From a virus: a DNA stretch of 29,711 nt. The DNA lies in IMG/VR virus record IMGVR_UViG_3300042987_000477, positions 1 through 29,711 of that record, one strand, 5' to 3'. Positions 6,872-13,052 of this stretch are shown piece after piece. The notes beneath the pieces are model-generated. The model had not been told where the DNA came from, searched no databases, and saw only the letters and a list, made by a program, of their open reading frames with translations. Positions within the stretch are counted from its first letter, which is position 1, and the number at the start of each line of letters is the position of its first letter. The translations under genes were made by a program, and so were the position numbers.

Positions 6872-7254
6872 GCACCATCGTCACCAGGGCTGGCAAAGGC
6901 AGTGCGCTAACGCACGCCGAGGTGGATGCCAATTTCACAAACCTTGGCTACTCAATTCCTGACAGTGCGCTGCAAGTAGCAACGCCCACAACCGGCACAA
7001 CTGTGACGGTAAATGACAACGCTGCCGCGCTAATTCTCAAGCACACCGCCACCATCGCAACGCTGACCATCGTTCTGCCGGCAAGTCCGGCAAACGGTCA
7101 AATTGTTCGCATCGGAACGCGCTCAACGGTCACCACGCTGACGCTAAACGCAAACACCGGGCAAACACGCTACGGCAACCCAACAACGATCACAGCAACA
7201 ACCCCCGTCGCCTTCATCTATGAGGCGGCAACACTCAGCTGGTATCGCGTCTGA
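6868..7254 (+). CDS. Small tail-tip-associated protein with 'THAEVDANFTNL' motif
   Basis: 128 aa, MSTIVTRAGKGSALTHAEVDANFTNLGYSI. The motif 'RaGKGs.LTHaEvDaNFtNL' is common at the N-terminus of phage tail fibre and tip proteins and probably attaches them to the tail. The rest is Thr/Ala-rich and strand-like (TPTTGTTVTVNDNAAALILKH; ANGQIVRIGTRSTVTTLTLN) and ends with an aromatic YEAATLSWYRV strand. This 'values, zero baseline, resulting shape' layout is seen in phage-surface beta domains. Lambda has no gene here, so it is an insertion between M and L. Function is unknown; a small decoration or receptor-contact role is a guess. Confidence 0.75.
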   Translation: MSTIVTRAGKGSALTHAEVDANFTNLGYSIPDSALQVATPTTGTTVTVNDNAAALILKHTATIATLTIVLPASPANGQIVRIGTRSTVTTLTLNANTGQTRYGNPTTITATTPVAFIYEAATLSWYRV

Positions 7255-8042
7255 TGGCTGTCCAAGACCTCTACGTTGTCGAAGGTTATTGGGCAGTCGG
7301 CTATGCCGTCGGTGACGGCTGGGTTTATCCCACCTCTGAGCTGCAGGGCATTGCGCCCAGTGCTGTCATCGAGCTGTTTGAGCTGGAGTTGAACACAGCG
7401 CAGCACGGCGCCAACGACATTTACCGCTTCCACGCTGGCAGCAACATGAACGCCAACGGCGAGCTGCTGTGGGCTGGCAACAGCTATCTGCGGTTTCCGG
7501 TCGAGGCGGATGGCTTTGAATACACCGGCAACGGCCAGCTGCCGCGGCCCAAGCTGCGCGCAAGCAACATCCTCGGCACCATCACTGCCATTTTGCTGAG
7601 CCTGCCTGAAGGACTGGAGGGCGCCAAGTTCACCCGCATCCGCACGCTGGCGCGCTATTTGGACGCCGGCAACTTCGCCGGTGGCGTCAACCCCTACGGC
7701 ACACCAGACCCGACTGCCGAGTTCCCGCGAGAGATCTACTACATCGACAGGAAGACCGCCGAGACGCGCGATGTGGTGGAGTTTGAGCTGGCGGCAGCGT
7801 TCGATTTGGCTGGCGTGCGCGCACCGAAGCGGCAGTGCATCGGCAACATTTGCCAATGGGAGTACCGCTCGGTGGAGTGCAGCTACACCGGCAGCAGCTA
7901 CTGGGATGAAAACGACAACGTGGTGACCACGCTGGCGGCAGACGTGTGCGGCAAGAAGCTGAGCAGCTGCAAACTGCGGTTTGGCCAGACCGCTGAGCTG
8001 CCATTCGGCTCTTATCCCGGCATCGGAGCCTATTTCGCATGA
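7254..8042 (+). CDS. Minor tail protein L-like (Fe-S tail-tip protein) with N-terminal extension
   Basis: 262 aa. Residues 1-25 ([22 protein letters not shown]) form a small extra module. From about residue 35 it follows lambda gp[10 protein letters not shown], a strand-rich N-domain with [17 protein letters not shown], then [20 protein letters not shown]. The Cys-rich C-terminal region has Cys at 195, 200, 209, 232 and 239; gpL coordinates an iron-sulfur cluster there at the tip of the tail. It overlaps its neighbours on both sides by ATGA. Functional identity with gpL is well supported; cluster binding is inferred from the conserved cysteines. Confidence 0.9.
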
Positions 8043-8761
8043 CCTGGCGCGCAGCAGCACTAGAGCACGCAAAGGCAGAAGATCCCCGCGAAGCCTGCGG
8101 CCTGCTGGTGGTCGTCAAGGGGCGCCGGCGTTACTGGCGGTGCCGCAACCTGGCGGCAGGCACCGAGCAGTTCATCCTGGATCCGCTGGACTTTGCTGCA
8201 GCCGAAGACGCGGGCGAGATCTTGGCGGTGGTCCACAGCCATCCCGTCACCCCGCCAGTGCCGAGCCAGGCCGACCTGCTGGCCATCGAACGCACCGCGT
8301 TGCCTTGGTACATCGTCAACCCTAAGACCGAGGCATGGAGCACCAAGCTGCAGCCGTGCGGCTACAAGGCGCCGCTGATCGGCCGTGAATGGACGTGGGG
8401 GCTTTCCGACTGCTGGACGCTGGTGCGGGACTGGTACGCCGAGCAGGGCCTGGAGTTGCTCGACTGGGCGCGACCGCTGACACCTGAGGAGTTTGAGACG
8501 GATCCGCTGTTTGACCGCTACTGGAAGGACGCAGGGTTCCGCGAGCTGGATGAGGACGAGCCACTGAAGCGCGGCGATGCGGTGTTGATGAGCATCAGCG
8601 GGCCGGGCCTCAACCACGTCGGCGTCTACATCGGTGACCAGCTGCTGCTGCATCACATCCGCGGCCGACTGAGCAGCCGTGATCTCTACGGCGGTTGGCT
8701 GCAGAAGTGCACTGGCCGCAGGCTCCGGCATTACGATGCAGGGAGGCTAGAGCTGACGTGA
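8039..8761 (+). CDS. Tail assembly protein K-like: JAMM metalloprotease + NlpC/P60 peptidase
   Basis: 240 aa with two domains. Residues 1-105 are a JAB/MPN domain with a complete JAMM signature: Glu18 (REACGLL), His66-Ser-His68-Pro, Ser76 and Asp79. This family is zinc isopeptidase/protease. Residues about 110-235 are an NlpC/P60-type cysteine peptidase with Cys125 ([13 protein letters not shown]), His193 ([11 protein letters not shown]) and a third polar residue at His205/His206. In lambda, gpK is needed for tail-tip assembly and is thought to process partner proteins and/or cut peptidoglycan peptides at entry. All catalytic residues are present, so both activities are plausible. The next gene (I-like) carries a ubiquitin-like domain, a natural JAMM substrate. 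Confidence 0.93.
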
Positions 8762-9333
8762 TGCTGCGCACGATCCGCATCTACGGGCGCCTGGCGAAAC
8801 TCCTCAAGCGCCGCAAGTTTGAGGCTGAGGTGGCCAGCGCCGCCGAGGCCGTGCGCTTCCTGCTGGCCAATTTTCCGCAGCTGGAGCCCGAGCTGGCCAA
8901 GGGCCATTACCGTGTCAGCGTTGGCAGCTACGACCTGGCCGAGGACGAGCTGCAGGCGCCGGCCGGCCAGCAGGAGATCAAGATCACCCCGGTGGTGGCA
9001 GGTGCTGGCGCTGTGGGGCGCATCATTGCGGGCGTGGCACTGGTCGCGTTGTCGTTCTTCCTGCCGCCGGTGGCAGGCATTGCGCTCGGCACCATCGCCT
9101 TTGGTGTGGGTGCCAGCTTGGTGCTGGGCGGTGTTGCGCAGCTGCTCACGCCGGTGCCCAGCTTGCCAACCAGCGGCAGCACCGCTGAGACCGCTAAAGA
9201 CCCCCGCAAGTCCTACAGCTTCAGCGGCGTTCAGCAGACCAGCCGCGCCGGTGTGCCGGTGCCCGTCGTCTACGGCGAGACCCTGGTGGGCTCTGTGGTG
9301 ATCTCGGCCGGCATCGACACGGTGCAGACATGA
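8761..9333 (+). CDS. Tail assembly protein I-like with ubiquitin-like N-terminal domain
   Basis: 190 aa from the ATG overlapping the K stop (TGATG), preferred to an upstream start that would run through K. Residues 1-82 have the beta-grasp layout ([64 protein letters not shown]). This domain has been described as ubiquitin-like in lambda gpI relatives. Residues about 83-130 are Gly/Ala-rich hydrophobic helices (GRIIAGVALVALSFFLPP, GVGASLVLGGVAQLL). A conserved C-terminal segment follows (SFSGVQQTSRAGVPVPVVYGE). GpI is required for tail-tip assembly but is not found in mature lambda tails. The Gly-Ala-Gly after the beta-grasp fold is a candidate cleavage point for K. Confidence 0.9.
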   Translation: MLRTIRIYGRLAKLLKRRKFEAEVASAAEAVRFLLANFPQLEPELAKGHYRVSVGSYDLAEDELQAPAGQQEIKITPVVAGAGAVGRIIAGVALVALSFFLPPVAGIALGTIAFGVGASLVLGGVAQLLTPVPSLPTSGSTAETAKDPRKSYSFSGVQQTSRAGVPVPVVYGETLVGSVVISAGIDTVQT

Positions 9334-12300
9334 ACAGGATCGTCGGCGCAGGTGGTGGCGGTGGCGGCGGCGGGTGCTTCTTAGGGCACACGCTGGTGCG
9401 CACGCCTGACGGGTTGCGCGCCATCGAGGCGCTGGAGCCTGGCGACCAGGTGCTGAGCTTTGACGACCAGGGAGAGCTGCACCAGGCCGCGGTGCTGAAG
9501 GTCCACGTCCACGAAAACGAGCGCGTAGTCCGCTACCGCCTCTGGGGCGGTGCCGTGCTCGATGCCACCCCGAACCACTGGGTGCTCAACCAGTTCAACG
9601 CCTTTGTTGAGATCGGCACGCTGGGCGCAGACGACTGCCTGGTGGATGAGAACGGCCACCTGCGGCCCATCGTTGAGCGCACCGACCACGGCCGCGGCAC
9701 TGTCTACAACCTGACGGTCGAAGGCCACCACACCTTCATCGCCGGCGGCATCCGTGTGCACAACGCCGGCCTGGGCCTGGGCATCGCCGGCGCAGGCGGT
9801 GGAGGTGGCGGTGGCGGCAAGGGCGGAGGTGGCGGCGGCGGCACCACCTACACCCCGACCGAAGCGGGCGACACGCTCAACAGCACTCAATACGCCAACC
9901 TGGTTGACCTGATCAGCGAGGGGGAGATCGAGGGCCTCAAGGATGGCCACAAGTCGATCTTCATCGACAACACTCCGCTGCAGAACGCAGACGGTTCCTA
10001 CAACTTCCAGAACGTCACCGTCACCACGCGGACGGGCACACAAAACCAGAGCTACATCCCCATCGCGGCTGATGTTGAAAACGAGCAGCCGGTCAGCGTC
10101 CAGGTGCAGTTCGGCACCCCGATTGTCCGCAGCATTACCAGCACCACCGTCAACGCCGCACGGGTGACCATCACGGTGCCGGCGTTGCAGGAGTTTGCCA
10201 GTAACGGCGACATCAACGGCTCTAGCTTCGGCTTGCAGATCGAGGTGCAATACAACGGCGGCGGCTACACCACGGTCCTGACCGATACGGTCTCCGGCCG
10301 CAGCGGTGATCAGTTCCAGCGCGACTACCTGGTCAGCCTGAGCGGCGCCTATCCCATTGACATCCGCGTGTCGCGGACCACGGCCGACAGCGGCAGCGCC
10401 AAGATCCAGAACGCCTTCAGCTGGTCGAGCTACACCGAGATCACCTACGCCAAGCTCCGCTACCCCAACAGCGCGCTGGTGGCGCTCCGCGTCGATGCCG
10501 AGCAGTTCAACTCCATCCCGCGCCGCAGCTACCTGATCCGCGGCATCAAGGTGGTGATTCCCAGCAATGCCACGGTGGACACGACTACCGGCCGGCTGAT
10601 CTATGCCGGCATCTGGGATGGCACCTTTGGAGCTGCAGCTTGGACCACCGACCCCTGCTGGATCCTCTGGGATCTGCTGACATCGACCCGATACGGCTTC
10701 GGTGATCACATCCAGGCGGCGCAGCTGGACAAGTGGGCGTTTTATGCCGCATCGGTCTATGCCTCGGCCTTGGTGCCCGATGGTTTTGGTGGCAGCGAGC
10801 CCCGCTTTAGCTGCAACGTCAACATCCAGACCGCTGAGGACGCCTACAAGCTGATCAACGACATGTGCTCGGTGTTCCGGGCCATGCCCTATTCGAGCAC
10901 CGGGGCGCTCACCGTCAGCCAGGATGCGCCGGCCGATCCGGCCTATCTGTTCACCTACGCGAACGTCTCGGAGGAGGGCTTCAGCTACCAAGGCGGCAGC
11001 CTCAAAACCCGTCCGACCGTGGCGGTGGTCAGCTACCTGAACCTCGACACCCGCGACATCGACTACGAGGTGGTGGAGGACCAAGAGGCGATCAGCAAGT
11101 ACGGCGTCGTCACCCGCGAGATCTCCGCCTTTGCCTGCACCAGCCGCGGCCAAGCGCACCGCCTGGGTGAGTGGCTGCTGTATTCGGAGTGGTACGAGAA
11201 CGAGGTGGTCAGCTTCACCGCCAGCATCGACGCGGGCGTGCTGGTGCGGCCAGGGCAGATCATCGAGATCAGCGATCCGATGCGCGCCGGCGCCCGCCGA
11301 GGTGGCCGCATCAGTTCCGCAACCACGGCCAACATCACGGTGGACGACGCCACGGGCCTGGCGCTAGGCACCGGCGCAACGCTGTCGGTGATCCTGCCCG
11401 ATGGCGCCGTGCAGAGCCGAGCGGTGGCCGCAATCAGCGGCAGCGTGCTCACCGTCAGTCCGGCGTTCACCACGGCGCCGAACGCCAACAGCATTTGGAT
11501 CTACCAGACCAACACGCTGCAGACCTCCACTTGGCGCGTGTTGAGCGTGCAGGAGCAGGAGGGCGCTCAGTACGCCATCGGCGCCCTGGCCTACAACGCC
11601 AGCAAATACGGCTACATCGAGCGGAACCTGACCCTGCAAACGCGGGACGTTACCGACCTGAACGAGATTCCGGCGGCGCCGGCCAACATGCAGGCCACTG
11701 AGGCGCTGTACGAAAGCAACGGCCGCGCGCTGTCCAAGCTGGTGATCAGCTGGCAGGCAGTGCTGGGCGTCAACCAATACCGCATCCGTTGGAAGCCACA
11801 GAACGGCAACTGGACAACAACAACGCAGACCCGACTGGATTACGAGATCCTTGACACCGTTGCCGGCCGCTACGAGGTCGAGGTCTACAGCATCAACGCG
11901 GGCCTCAAACAATCAACGCAGCCGGCCCGGTTGACCGTTGAAGCACGCGGCAAGACGGCTGCACCGGCGGATGTGACCGGCTTGTCATTGATTGCTATTG
12001 ATGAAGCAAGCGCAATCCTTACATGGGATCCCACCACTGATCTTGATGTGCGAATTGGCGGCAAAGTCCTGATCCGCCATAGCACTGTGCTCGTGGGCGC
12101 CACATGGGAGGAGTCGCAGGAGATCGTCCCCAGCGTTGGCGGCAATCAAACCCAGAAGCAGGTCCCGGTTCTTGAAGGCACCTATCTGGTCAAGTTCCAG
12201 GATGACTCCGGCAATCGCTCGGTCAATGCCGCAACCGTTGTGGTCGATCTGCCAACACCGCAGCCACGCCTGCTGGTGCAGAGCTACCGCGAGGACCAAG

Positions 12301-13052
12301 AGACGCCGCCGTTCTCGGGGAACTTGACCGACATGTTCTACAGCGCCGAGCAGGACGGCTTGGTGATCAGCACCGGCCTGGACGTGGACGACATGGCTAC
12401 GGACGGCGACTGGGATGCGCTTGGCACGATTGACGGCGTTGGCGGCGTGCTGAGTTCTGGCGAGTACGAGTTCGGCAGCACCCTCGACCTAGGTGGCACG
12501 TTTGATCTCAACCTCACCCGCTATTTCGTCACAAGGCCCTACCTGCCAGGCAGCTTGTGGGACGACAAGCTGGGGGACATCGATACCTGGCCCGCTATTG
12601 ATGAAACCAACCTCGATGGCGTGAACGCGCTGCTCTACGTTCGCGCCACCGCCGACAACCCGGCAGGCACCCCAACTTGGAGCACCTGGCGCGAGTTCTC
12701 GAACGTGATCACTCGCGGGCGTGGCTTCCAGTTCAAGGTGATCGCCACCAGCTCCGACCCTGCGCAGAACATCATCGTGGACGAACTGGGTTGCGAAGTG
12801 GAGCTGCAGCAGAGGACAGAACAGTCGGGCACCTTGACAAGCACCGCCGCAACGTATGCAGTGACGTTTGCTGACGCCTTCTATCAGGCACCTTCCATCG
12901 GCGTCACAGCGTTCAACATGGTGACCGGCGATTACTTTGAGGTGGCAAGCGTGACCAGGGCAGGATTCCAGGTAACCTTTAGGAATAGCGGCGGCTCTGC
13001 CGTGGCTCGCCAGTTCACTTACACTGCTATCGGATACGGCCGGGAGATCTGA
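9330..13052 (+). CDS. Tail tip / host specificity protein J-like with N-terminal Hint (intein-like) domain
   Basis: 1240 aa. Residues 1-15 are a short leader ending in eight Gly. Residues 16-145 are a Hint domain (see separate entry). Residues 152-171 are Gly-rich (eight Gly, Lys, seven Gly). From about 172 the protein follows lambda gpJ (TPTEAGDTLNSTQYANLVDL, ISEGEIEGLKDGHKSIFIDN, then VQFGTPIVRSITSTTVNAAR; later TDPCWILWDLLTSTRYGFG and VSEEGFSYQGGSLKTRPTVA). Two fibronectin-III-like domains lie at about 780-870 and 873-970, and a divergent C-terminal region at 975-1240 probably contacts the host. In lambda, J starts at the 'GKG...TPREA' segment, so the leader and Hint domain are an addition. 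It forms the trimeric tip that recognises the receptor. Start overlaps the I-like gene (ATGA). Confidence 0.93.
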   Translation: MNRIVGAGGGGGGGGCFLGHTLVRTPDGLRAIEALEPGDQVLSFDDQGELHQAAVLKVHVHENERVVRYRLWGGAVLDATPNHWVLNQFNAFVEIGTLGADDCLVDENGHLRPIVERTDHGRGTVYNLTVEGHHTFIAGGIRVHNAGLGLGIAGAGGGGGGGGKGGGGGGGTTYTPTEAGDTLNSTQYANLVDLISEGEIEGLKDGHKSIFIDNTPLQNADGSYNFQNVTVTTRTGTQNQSYIPIAADVENEQPVSVQVQFGTPIVRSITSTTVNAARVTITVPALQEFASNGDINGSSFGLQIEVQYNGGGYTTVLTDTVSGRSGDQFQRDYLVSLSGAYPIDIRVSRTTADSGSAKIQNAFSWSSYTEITYAKLRYPNSALVALRVDAEQFNSIPRRSYLIRGIKVVIPSNATVDTTTGRLIYAGIWDGTFGAAAWTTDPCWILWDLLTSTRYGFGDHIQAAQLDKWAFYAASVYASALVPDGFGGSEPRFSCNVNIQTAEDAYKLINDMCSVFRAMPYSSTGALTVSQDAPADPAYLFTYANVSEEGFSYQGGSLKTRPTVAVVSYLNLDTRDIDYEVVEDQEAISKYGVVTREISAFACTSRGQAHRLGEWLLYSEWYENEVVSFTASIDAGVLVRPGQIIEISDPMRAGARRGGRISSATTANITVDDATGLALGTGATLSVILPDGAVQSRAVAAISGSVLTVSPAFTTAPNANSIWIYQTNTLQTSTWRVLSVQEQEGAQYAIGALAYNASKYGYIERNLTLQTRDVTDLNEIPAAPANMQATEALYESNGRALSKLVISWQAVLGVNQYRIRWKPQNGNWTTTTQTRLDYEILDTVAGRYEVEVYSINAGLKQSTQPARLTVEARGKTAAPADVTGLSLIAIDEASAILTWDPTTDLDVRIGGKVLIRHSTVLVGATWEESQEIVPSVGGNQTQKQVPVLEGTYLVKFQDDSGNRSVNAATVVVDLPTPQPRLLVQSYREDQETPPFSGNLTDMFYSAEQDGLVISTGLDVDDMATDGDWDALGTIDGVGGVLSSGEYEFGSTLDLGGTFDLNLTRYFVTRPYLPGSLWDDKLGDIDTWPAIDETNLDGVNALLYVRATADNPAGTPTWSTWREFSNVITRGRGFQFKVIATSSDPAQNIIVDELGCEVELQQRTEQSGTLTSTAATYAVTFADAFYQAPSIGVTAFNMVTGDYFEVASVTRAGFQVTFRNSGGSAVARQFTYTAIGYGREI
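9339..9374 (+). repeat. Direct repeat copy 1, 5' of the Hint coding region
   Basis: 36 bp coding Ile-Val-Gly-Ala-Gly8, ending exactly before the Cys codon of the Hint domain. It matches the copy at 9783-9818 at 31 of 36 positions, in the same reading frame, 444 bp away. The unequal Gly codons mean some likeness could be convergent low complexity. Confidence 0.75.
9375..9764 (+). other. Hint domain, bacterial intein-like type (residues 16-145 of J-like protein)
   Basis: 130 residues with all Hint blocks and no homing endonuclease. Block A is CFLGHTLVRTPDGLRAIEAL followed by EPGDQVLSFD. Block B has the TPNH motif (ATPNHWVLNQF, residues 79-89). Blocks F/G are VYNLTVEGHHTFIAGG and IRVHN. The first residue is Cys16 and the last two are His144-Asn145. 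The next residue is Ala146, not Cys, Ser or Thr, so canonical splicing lacks its C-extein nucleophile. This combination is that of bacterial intein-like (BIL) domains, which mainly self-cleave at one or both ends and splice only weakly. Expected here: N-terminal thioester formation at Cys16 and Asn145 cyclisation, releasing J with a Gly-rich N-terminus. Confidence 0.9.
9783..9818 (+). repeat. Direct repeat copy 2, 3' of the Hint coding region
   Basis: 36 bp coding Ile-Ala-Gly-Ala-Gly8, 31 of 36 bases identical with 9339-9374. It lies 18 bases after the Hint Asn codon and is followed by Lys and seven more Gly. It looks like the original J N-terminal Gly stretch, of which copy 1 would be a duplicate. 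Confidence 0.75.

Follow-up and report, generated by a model that had tools for sequence, protein, structure and literature searches.

A Hint domain of the bacterial intein-like type at the N-terminus of a phage tail-tip J protein

The window analyzed here, a stretch of viral DNA of 29,711 nucleotides, carries tail genes in the order L-K-I-J (Table 1). This order, together with a match of residues 167-880 of the last gene product to profile positions 2-717 of lambda_TipJ (NF049904; 5.6e-134), places that protein in the lambda J family; matches to FNIII-A_GpJ and Phage-tail_3 were also found. The ATG of J overlaps the stop codon of gene I (ATGA), and gene I is described in the literature as having a Ub-like N-domain. 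The J precursor consists of MNRIVGAGGGGGGGG (residues 1-15), a Hint domain (residues 16-145), the segment AGLGLG-IAGAGGGGGGGG-KGGGGGGG and the J body. The lambda_TipJ match thus begins only after the Hint domain, which sits where lambda J begins, as an earlier note made from this DNA had stated. An open frame of 592 residues runs antisense to J (window 9381-11159, minus strand) and is most likely explained by the G+C-rich codon usage.

Table 1. Tail-tip genes and features of the J precursor in the window
Feature	Coordinates	Strand	Evidence or remark
Gene L, tail hub, Phage_tail_L	7254..8042	+	Pfam 2.8e-58
Gene K, JAB + NlpC/P60	8039..8761	+	Pfam Prok-JAB 1.5e-15, NLPC_P60 7e-15
Gene I, tail-tip insertion/plug protein	8761..9333	+	PHROG 32 1.6e-48
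J-like tail-tip/central fibre protein, precursor, 1240 aa	9330..13052	+	PHROG 31 E 2e-245
N-extein MNRIVGAGGGGGGGG, Gly at -1	9330..9374	+	translation
First copy of J start motif, I-V-G-A-G	9339-9353	+	within N-extein
Left arm, imperfect direct DNA repeat	9339..9374	+	31/36 identical to 9783-9818
Hint domain, BIL-type, mini, without endonuclease, C16-N145, 130 residues	9375..9764	+	
Cys1 of Hint (N-S acyl shift nucleophile)	9375..9377	+	invariant 100/100
Block B T-P-N-H, residues 80-83	9567..9578	+	TPNH 92/100, TANH 8/100
Block F Y-N-L-T-V-E-G-H-H-T-F	9705..9737	+	Asn at F:4, inteins Asp
Block G His-Asn (Asn cyclisation, C-terminal cleavage)	9759..9764	+	HN 100/100
+1 to +4, A-G-L-G	9765..9776	+	AGLG 100/100; pN/pS 0.001-0.05
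Second copy of J start motif, I-A-G-A-G	9783..9797	+	C-copy in 99/100
Right arm, imperfect direct DNA repeat	9783..9818	+	codon comparison with 9339-9374
J body (TPTEA onwards: hub domains, FNIII-A, fn3)	9852..13052	+	

Several lines of evidence identify the Hint domain. The Pfam model PT-HINT (PF07591) matches residues 22-147 above its cut-off (E 5.6e-12), as does NCBIfam TIGR01443 (intein_Cterm), with TIGR01445 (intein_Nterm) slightly below its own, and a profile built from 21 relatives has as its top PDB match the C. thermocellum BIL domain 2LWY (1e-9). AlphaFold2 supplied with 51 relatives folds residues 16-145 as a Hint domain with a pLDDT of 89.7 and agreement of all five models; this run superseded an initial one with 21 sequences, which gave one good model and four poor ones. 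Foldseek searches with the resulting horseshoe-shaped all-beta model, the fold of the Hint superfamily, returned BIL2 (6Y75), BIL4 (2LWY; TM 0.85), mini-inteins (gp41-1; 0.89) and Hedgehog. The Pfam, profile and fold results together exclude a chance match as the source of the assignment. The earlier note had described residues 16-145 as a complete Hint domain of the BIL type, and this description holds: each motif it named is present (Cys16, TPNH at residues 80-83, VEGHHTFIAGG at 130-140, His144-Asn145 and then Ala146), the +1 Ala is non-nucleophilic, the fold is nearest to those of BIL domains and mini-inteins, and the endonuclease is absent. The span that it gave, 9330-9818, is wider, as it includes the Gly-rich linker as well as the N-extein. 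In 100/100 distinct relatives the length is exactly 130 residues, without insertion, leaving no room for an endonuclease, and homing by such an enzyme is thus ruled out. The site of block F reads VYDIEVE in cyanobacterial DnaX inteins. Beyond the catalytic residues, H59-x-H61 (9504-9512) and Cys103 (in DDCLVDEN, 9636-9638) are invariant and could allow redox or metal control of the domain.

The two junctions are fixed. Cys1, Gly at -1, the His-Asn pair and AGLG are invariant among 100 distinct N-termini, an exactness that is partly ascertainment, as these N-termini were picked by similarity. The two Gly residues at -2 and -1 are nearly invariant, and the start motif of the N-extein is found in 99 of the 100. 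Codons at the junctions have a pS of 0.28-0.64 with the amino acids hardly altered, the N-terminal copy of the start motif has a pN/pS resembling that of the C-terminal copy, and pN/pS is lower for Hint than for J in seven of eight divergence bins. Judged from these sequence comparisons, purifying selection is strong, and constraint of this kind is what would be expected of a working self-processing domain. The +1 residue is Ala in 100/100 close relatives; divergent groups have Gly (L255, L265, L266 and L324), Lys (the L250 group) or rarely Ser (L316, 3001-3393), and these variants provide a natural series for comparing splicing with cleavage. In one locus (L039:4944-5004) the J start loses its reading frame within the Gly run, so that Gly codons are read as Trp (CRRWWWWRG/CFLG, the slash here and below marking a Hint boundary). 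An indel within the GGT/GGC repeat is the probable cause; if the frameshift is real, it would silence J.

J proteins with an N-terminal Hint domain, which the earlier note had suggested looking for, turned out to be numerous in environmental data, with relatives of the domain in at least 450 viral contigs. The first of three scans of viral contigs found 457 relatives, of which the best 80 were kept, a wider second scan found 471, and the third extended to Hint domains of as little as 37% identity. In nearly all loci read out the domain occupies the same place, at the N-terminus of J. The clear exception is a related Hint (41%) lying midway in a 1579-residue protein of a 101-kb viral contig (L249:745-5481), where it is preceded by a long Gly/Asp run and followed by Ser at +1; the N-terminal part of that protein matches PHROG 4287 (DNA ejection protein). 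A search of 50,697 phage records found no Hint domain in J, its only Hint matches being a Vibrio phage helicase/NTPase and a Ruminococcus phage protein; the hypothetical protein of Ruminococcus phage NatCom_29429 (L164:5482-6780) has a BIL-like Hint ending VHN/AEC, with Ala at +1. Thus, the family, which comprises hundreds of environmental contigs, is known from uncultured viruses only. Among 84,980 genomes searched for prophages there was a single match, on a 7-kb contig of a cyanobacterial MAG that is probably a binned virus, and the idea of a prophage gene was set aside. The BFVD entry A0A218MKA3, named 'Putative gp62 [uncultured virus]' in UniProt, has a Hint fold 40% identical to that of the window. 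Burkholderia phage Bcep176 has gp62 as its J protein, so this entry is probably an unrecognized member of the family.

The endolysin of the window shares 66% identity with its counterpart in Synechococcus phage S-CBS3, the nearest J among isolates is that of cyanophage MED4-117, and the only genome match lies in a cyanobacterial MAG, making a cyanobacterial host likely for this freshwater virus. Cyanophages S-CBS3 and S-LBS1, to which it is related through endolysin and capsid, have no annotated J at the corresponding place. A cyanobacterial genome (G102; L242:1498-1887, minus strand) encodes a BIL domain with TVYNFTVEGLHTYVAGGIRVHN/TSV and a block F/G very near that of the phage, and a cyanobacterial BIL of this kind is a possible source of the cassette.

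About half of the close relatives lack the domain altogether. A search with the J body alone returned 37 loci with Hint and 40 without. In a J clade about 50% different, approximately 46 loci have it and 32 do not, with one locus scored empty in these counts (L399) actually carrying Hint, and among J proteins at least 90% identical to the query the split is 19 to 19. Empty alleles at the same site, as class 1 inteins also have, are present in every clade sampled, and L162/L159 and similar pairs show a clean insertion between flanks 90-97% identical. The J tree requires 12 changes in Hint presence, of which at least eight are forced by well-supported branches, and the Hint tree conflicts with it at 11 of 35 strong J splits. 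Exchange can also be seen locally: the Hint domains of L045 and L060 have a pS of 0.08 versus 0.57 for J, L025 and L031 have a Hint island in common between diverged flanks, and L036 and L065 differ mainly within Hint. Tree conflict and local exchange show that the cassette moves between J alleles by ordinary phage recombination, with no endonuclease. Recombination between the two repeat arms could in turn lead to cassette loss, leaving an empty J in frame.

The start motif of J bears directly on how the domain is processed. Empty J alleles begin MSR-IVGAGGGGGGG-KGGGG and contain the motif once, and in the group of the window it occurs twice, with one copy on each side of Hint; a Gly run and then K-GGGGGGG (9819-9842) come after the second copy. 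The motif is old: phages of Halomonas, Burkholderia, Stenotrophomonas and Klebsiella have forms of I-x-G-[AS]-G ahead of the TPxEA of their J proteins. Among distant lambdoid J proteins its position is fixed relative to TPxEA and variable relative to Met. The mean distance from Ala146 to the Lys is 18.3 residues, and that from Met to the Lys in empty alleles is 15.1. A divergent branch formed by L250, L252 and L332, with a Hint identity of 37-39%, has Lys at +1 and no second motif (ILRGAG/CFVAG...VHN/KGGGGGSCTP), and its close empty relative L335 reads VLRGAG-GGGGGGQSCTP.

With its catalytic residues intact, the domain very probably carries out autoprocessing of some kind, and the expectation that J acquires a Gly-rich N-terminus in this way remains a likely outcome. 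We propose that the J precursor carries a catalytically competent BIL-type Hint within the disordered, Gly-rich stretch that precedes the hub domain. The Gly15-Cys16 bond would shift to a thioester, Asn145 would then cyclise and free the J chain at Ala146, and the freed alpha-amine of Ala146 (or water) would attack the thioester, upon which the Hint would leave. Ligation in the last step would yield MNRIVGAGGGGGGGG-AGLGLGIAGAGGG...KGGGG-J. We favor such self-excision with ligation, using no nucleophilic +1 side chain, as the main product, while giving it only about an even chance. This preference draws on the conservation of the N-extein motif, on the L250/L335 case and on a report of ligation by a BIL domain without a nucleophilic +1 side chain (Aranko et al. 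2013, by its title as cited in PMC7664689). In the L250 branch, the most informative of the natural cases, excision with ligation would give the arrangement of the empty allele, whereas cleavage alone would remove the motif. The first copy of the motif in the window's group seems to matter too, since it is as conserved as the second (99/100) and the two copies do not covary. The pairs IQGAST/IQGAST in L062 and GSKG/GSKG in L275 had raised the idea of covariation; gene conversion or coupling between the copies is not supported, as independent pairs on the J tree show no covariation.

The principal alternative is cleavage only, in which Asn cyclisation frees J at Ala146 and the N-peptide and Hint together are a removable pro-domain; we consider this a real possibility, though a somewhat doubtful one. 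It was the outcome preferred by the earlier note, and much of the case for it stands: Ala at +1 and Asn at F:4 are of the cleavage type, and BIL domains give mainly cleaved products (PMC7664689). The mature J, AGLGLG-IAGAGGG...KGGGG, would resemble the empty start MSR-IVGAGGG...KGGGG at nearly the same distance from the Lys, so that the second motif rebuilds the J start; it would be redundant after splicing and useful after cleavage, and its placement by TPxEA rather than Met in distant lambdoid J proteins agrees with this. However, cleavage alone does not account for the conservation of an N-terminal copy that would be discarded, in motif and in pN/pS alike, unless recombination with empty alleles maintains it. 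Nor does it account for the L250 branch, in which the motif is not duplicated, or for the near-invariant Gly pair before Cys1, which suggests that the N-terminal reaction is selected too. Preference for ligation is tempered by the points in favor of cleavage.

Two further readings fare poorly. An inert structural or decoy domain that remains on J is very improbable: no result speaks in its favor, the catalytic residues and both junctions are invariant, and empty J evidently suffices in close relatives. Slightly weaker still is the earlier note's suggestion that the Cys16 thioester links J to another tail protein; more generally, the N-peptide would be joined to some tail protein or other molecule in the way that Hedgehog is joined to cholesterol. 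The chemistry is possible at Gly15-Cys16 and the N-extein ends in a Gly run, but only a 15-residue peptide would be transferred (10-18 residues in relatives), the Hint lacks a downstream extension for binding an acceptor and, unlike Hog domains, keeps His-Asn, and no column of gene I separates loci with and without Hint beyond clade effects. Co-adapted gene I residues were likewise rejected, as their associations track clades and none is diagnostic of Hint.

What the domain does for the phage is a separate matter from whether self-excision ends in ligation or cleavage. If all three J chains bore a bulky 14-kDa Hint next to the gpL/gpI/gpM ring, the tail tip could probably not assemble, and removal of the Hint would therefore have to precede or license assembly. 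The domain may be a selfish or neutral passenger resembling a mini-intein, its catalytic residues kept because unprocessed J would be useless; this reading, compatible with ligation or cleavage, seems to us evenly poised between right and wrong. Near-even presence and absence in two clades, the forced changes on the J tree, the tree conflict and the local exchange of Hint all speak for it. On the other side, a single site persists over J divergence to about 49% identity with no endonuclease for spread, and most comparisons show tighter constraint on Hint than on J. Even presence and absence fits a passenger or balanced selection, and the latter enters a less favored proposal, which we regard as unlikely, of a maturation switch in a siphovirus tail tip: a ligating Hint (+1 Ala, Gly or Lys) would hold J assembly-incompetent until excised and be kept at roughly half frequency by opposing selection. 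Excision would then possibly respond to redox state or metal in the cyanobacterial host, through C103 and H59/H61. JAB processing of the Ub-like domain of gene I, at the end of that domain and beside a Gly-rich linker, has been predicted (PMC1779556). As gene K has JAB as well as NlpC/P60, self-processing by Hint and trans-processing by JAB on gene I may coexist in the same tail tip.

Self-processing Hint domains are known in enzymes, toxins and adhesins. No report of a Hint domain or intein in J or another phage tail-tip protein was found in searches of full texts available without subscription. The chemistry and fold are already known, and it is the setting in a tail-tip hub protein and the population pattern that appear new. 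The system provides natural pairs of alleles that differ in whether the cassette is present, and raises the question of whether tail assembly is timed by protein self-excision or tolerates a parasite. In practical terms, J sequences predicted from viromes may include 130 residues that are missing from the virion.

A comparison with known systems shows similarities and disparities with each. With lambda gpJ the protein of the window shares gene order and homology over residues 167-880, but J proteins in the phage records searched carry no such Hint. Phage inteins (TerL, RNR and dCTP deaminase; phiCbK, Mic1 and CL131) are likewise Hint domains in phage proteins, some of them of cyanophages; they lie in enzymes, often with a homing endonuclease and a nucleophilic +1, and none has been reported in J. 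The pretoxin HINT of polymorphic toxins (PF07591) is the best Pfam match and also releases a flanking polypeptide, but it precedes a C-terminal toxin, whereas the J Hint is near the N-terminus and would take the N-peptide with it on release. Class 1 mini-inteins (gp41-1, DnaB and Mtu RecA) have the same fold, Cys1, block-B His and His-Asn, and share the clean insertion with inteinless alleles and allelic exchange. They differ in having Cys, Ser or Thr at +1, where the J Hint has Ala146 (Gly, Lys or rarely Ser in relatives), in having Asp rather than Asn at F:4, and in lying at a conserved active site rather than in a disordered Gly-rich segment; homing inteins differ further in their endonuclease. 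A-type BIL domains (C. thermocellum BIL4, 2LWY) agree in fold, size, Cys1, T..H, terminal His-Asn, block F (Y-N-[LF]-x-V-[ED]), the non-nucleophilic +1 and the lack of an endonuclease, so that all splicing motifs of this class are found in the J Hint. According to reviews, BILs lie in the variable regions of bacterial proteins that are not conserved, in contrast to the J Hint, which has a fixed site in a conserved hub protein of the phage virion, a near-invariant C-flank and clean empty alleles. From its motifs and predicted fold we therefore class the J Hint as BIL-type, distinct from A-type BILs by location and from class 1 inteins.
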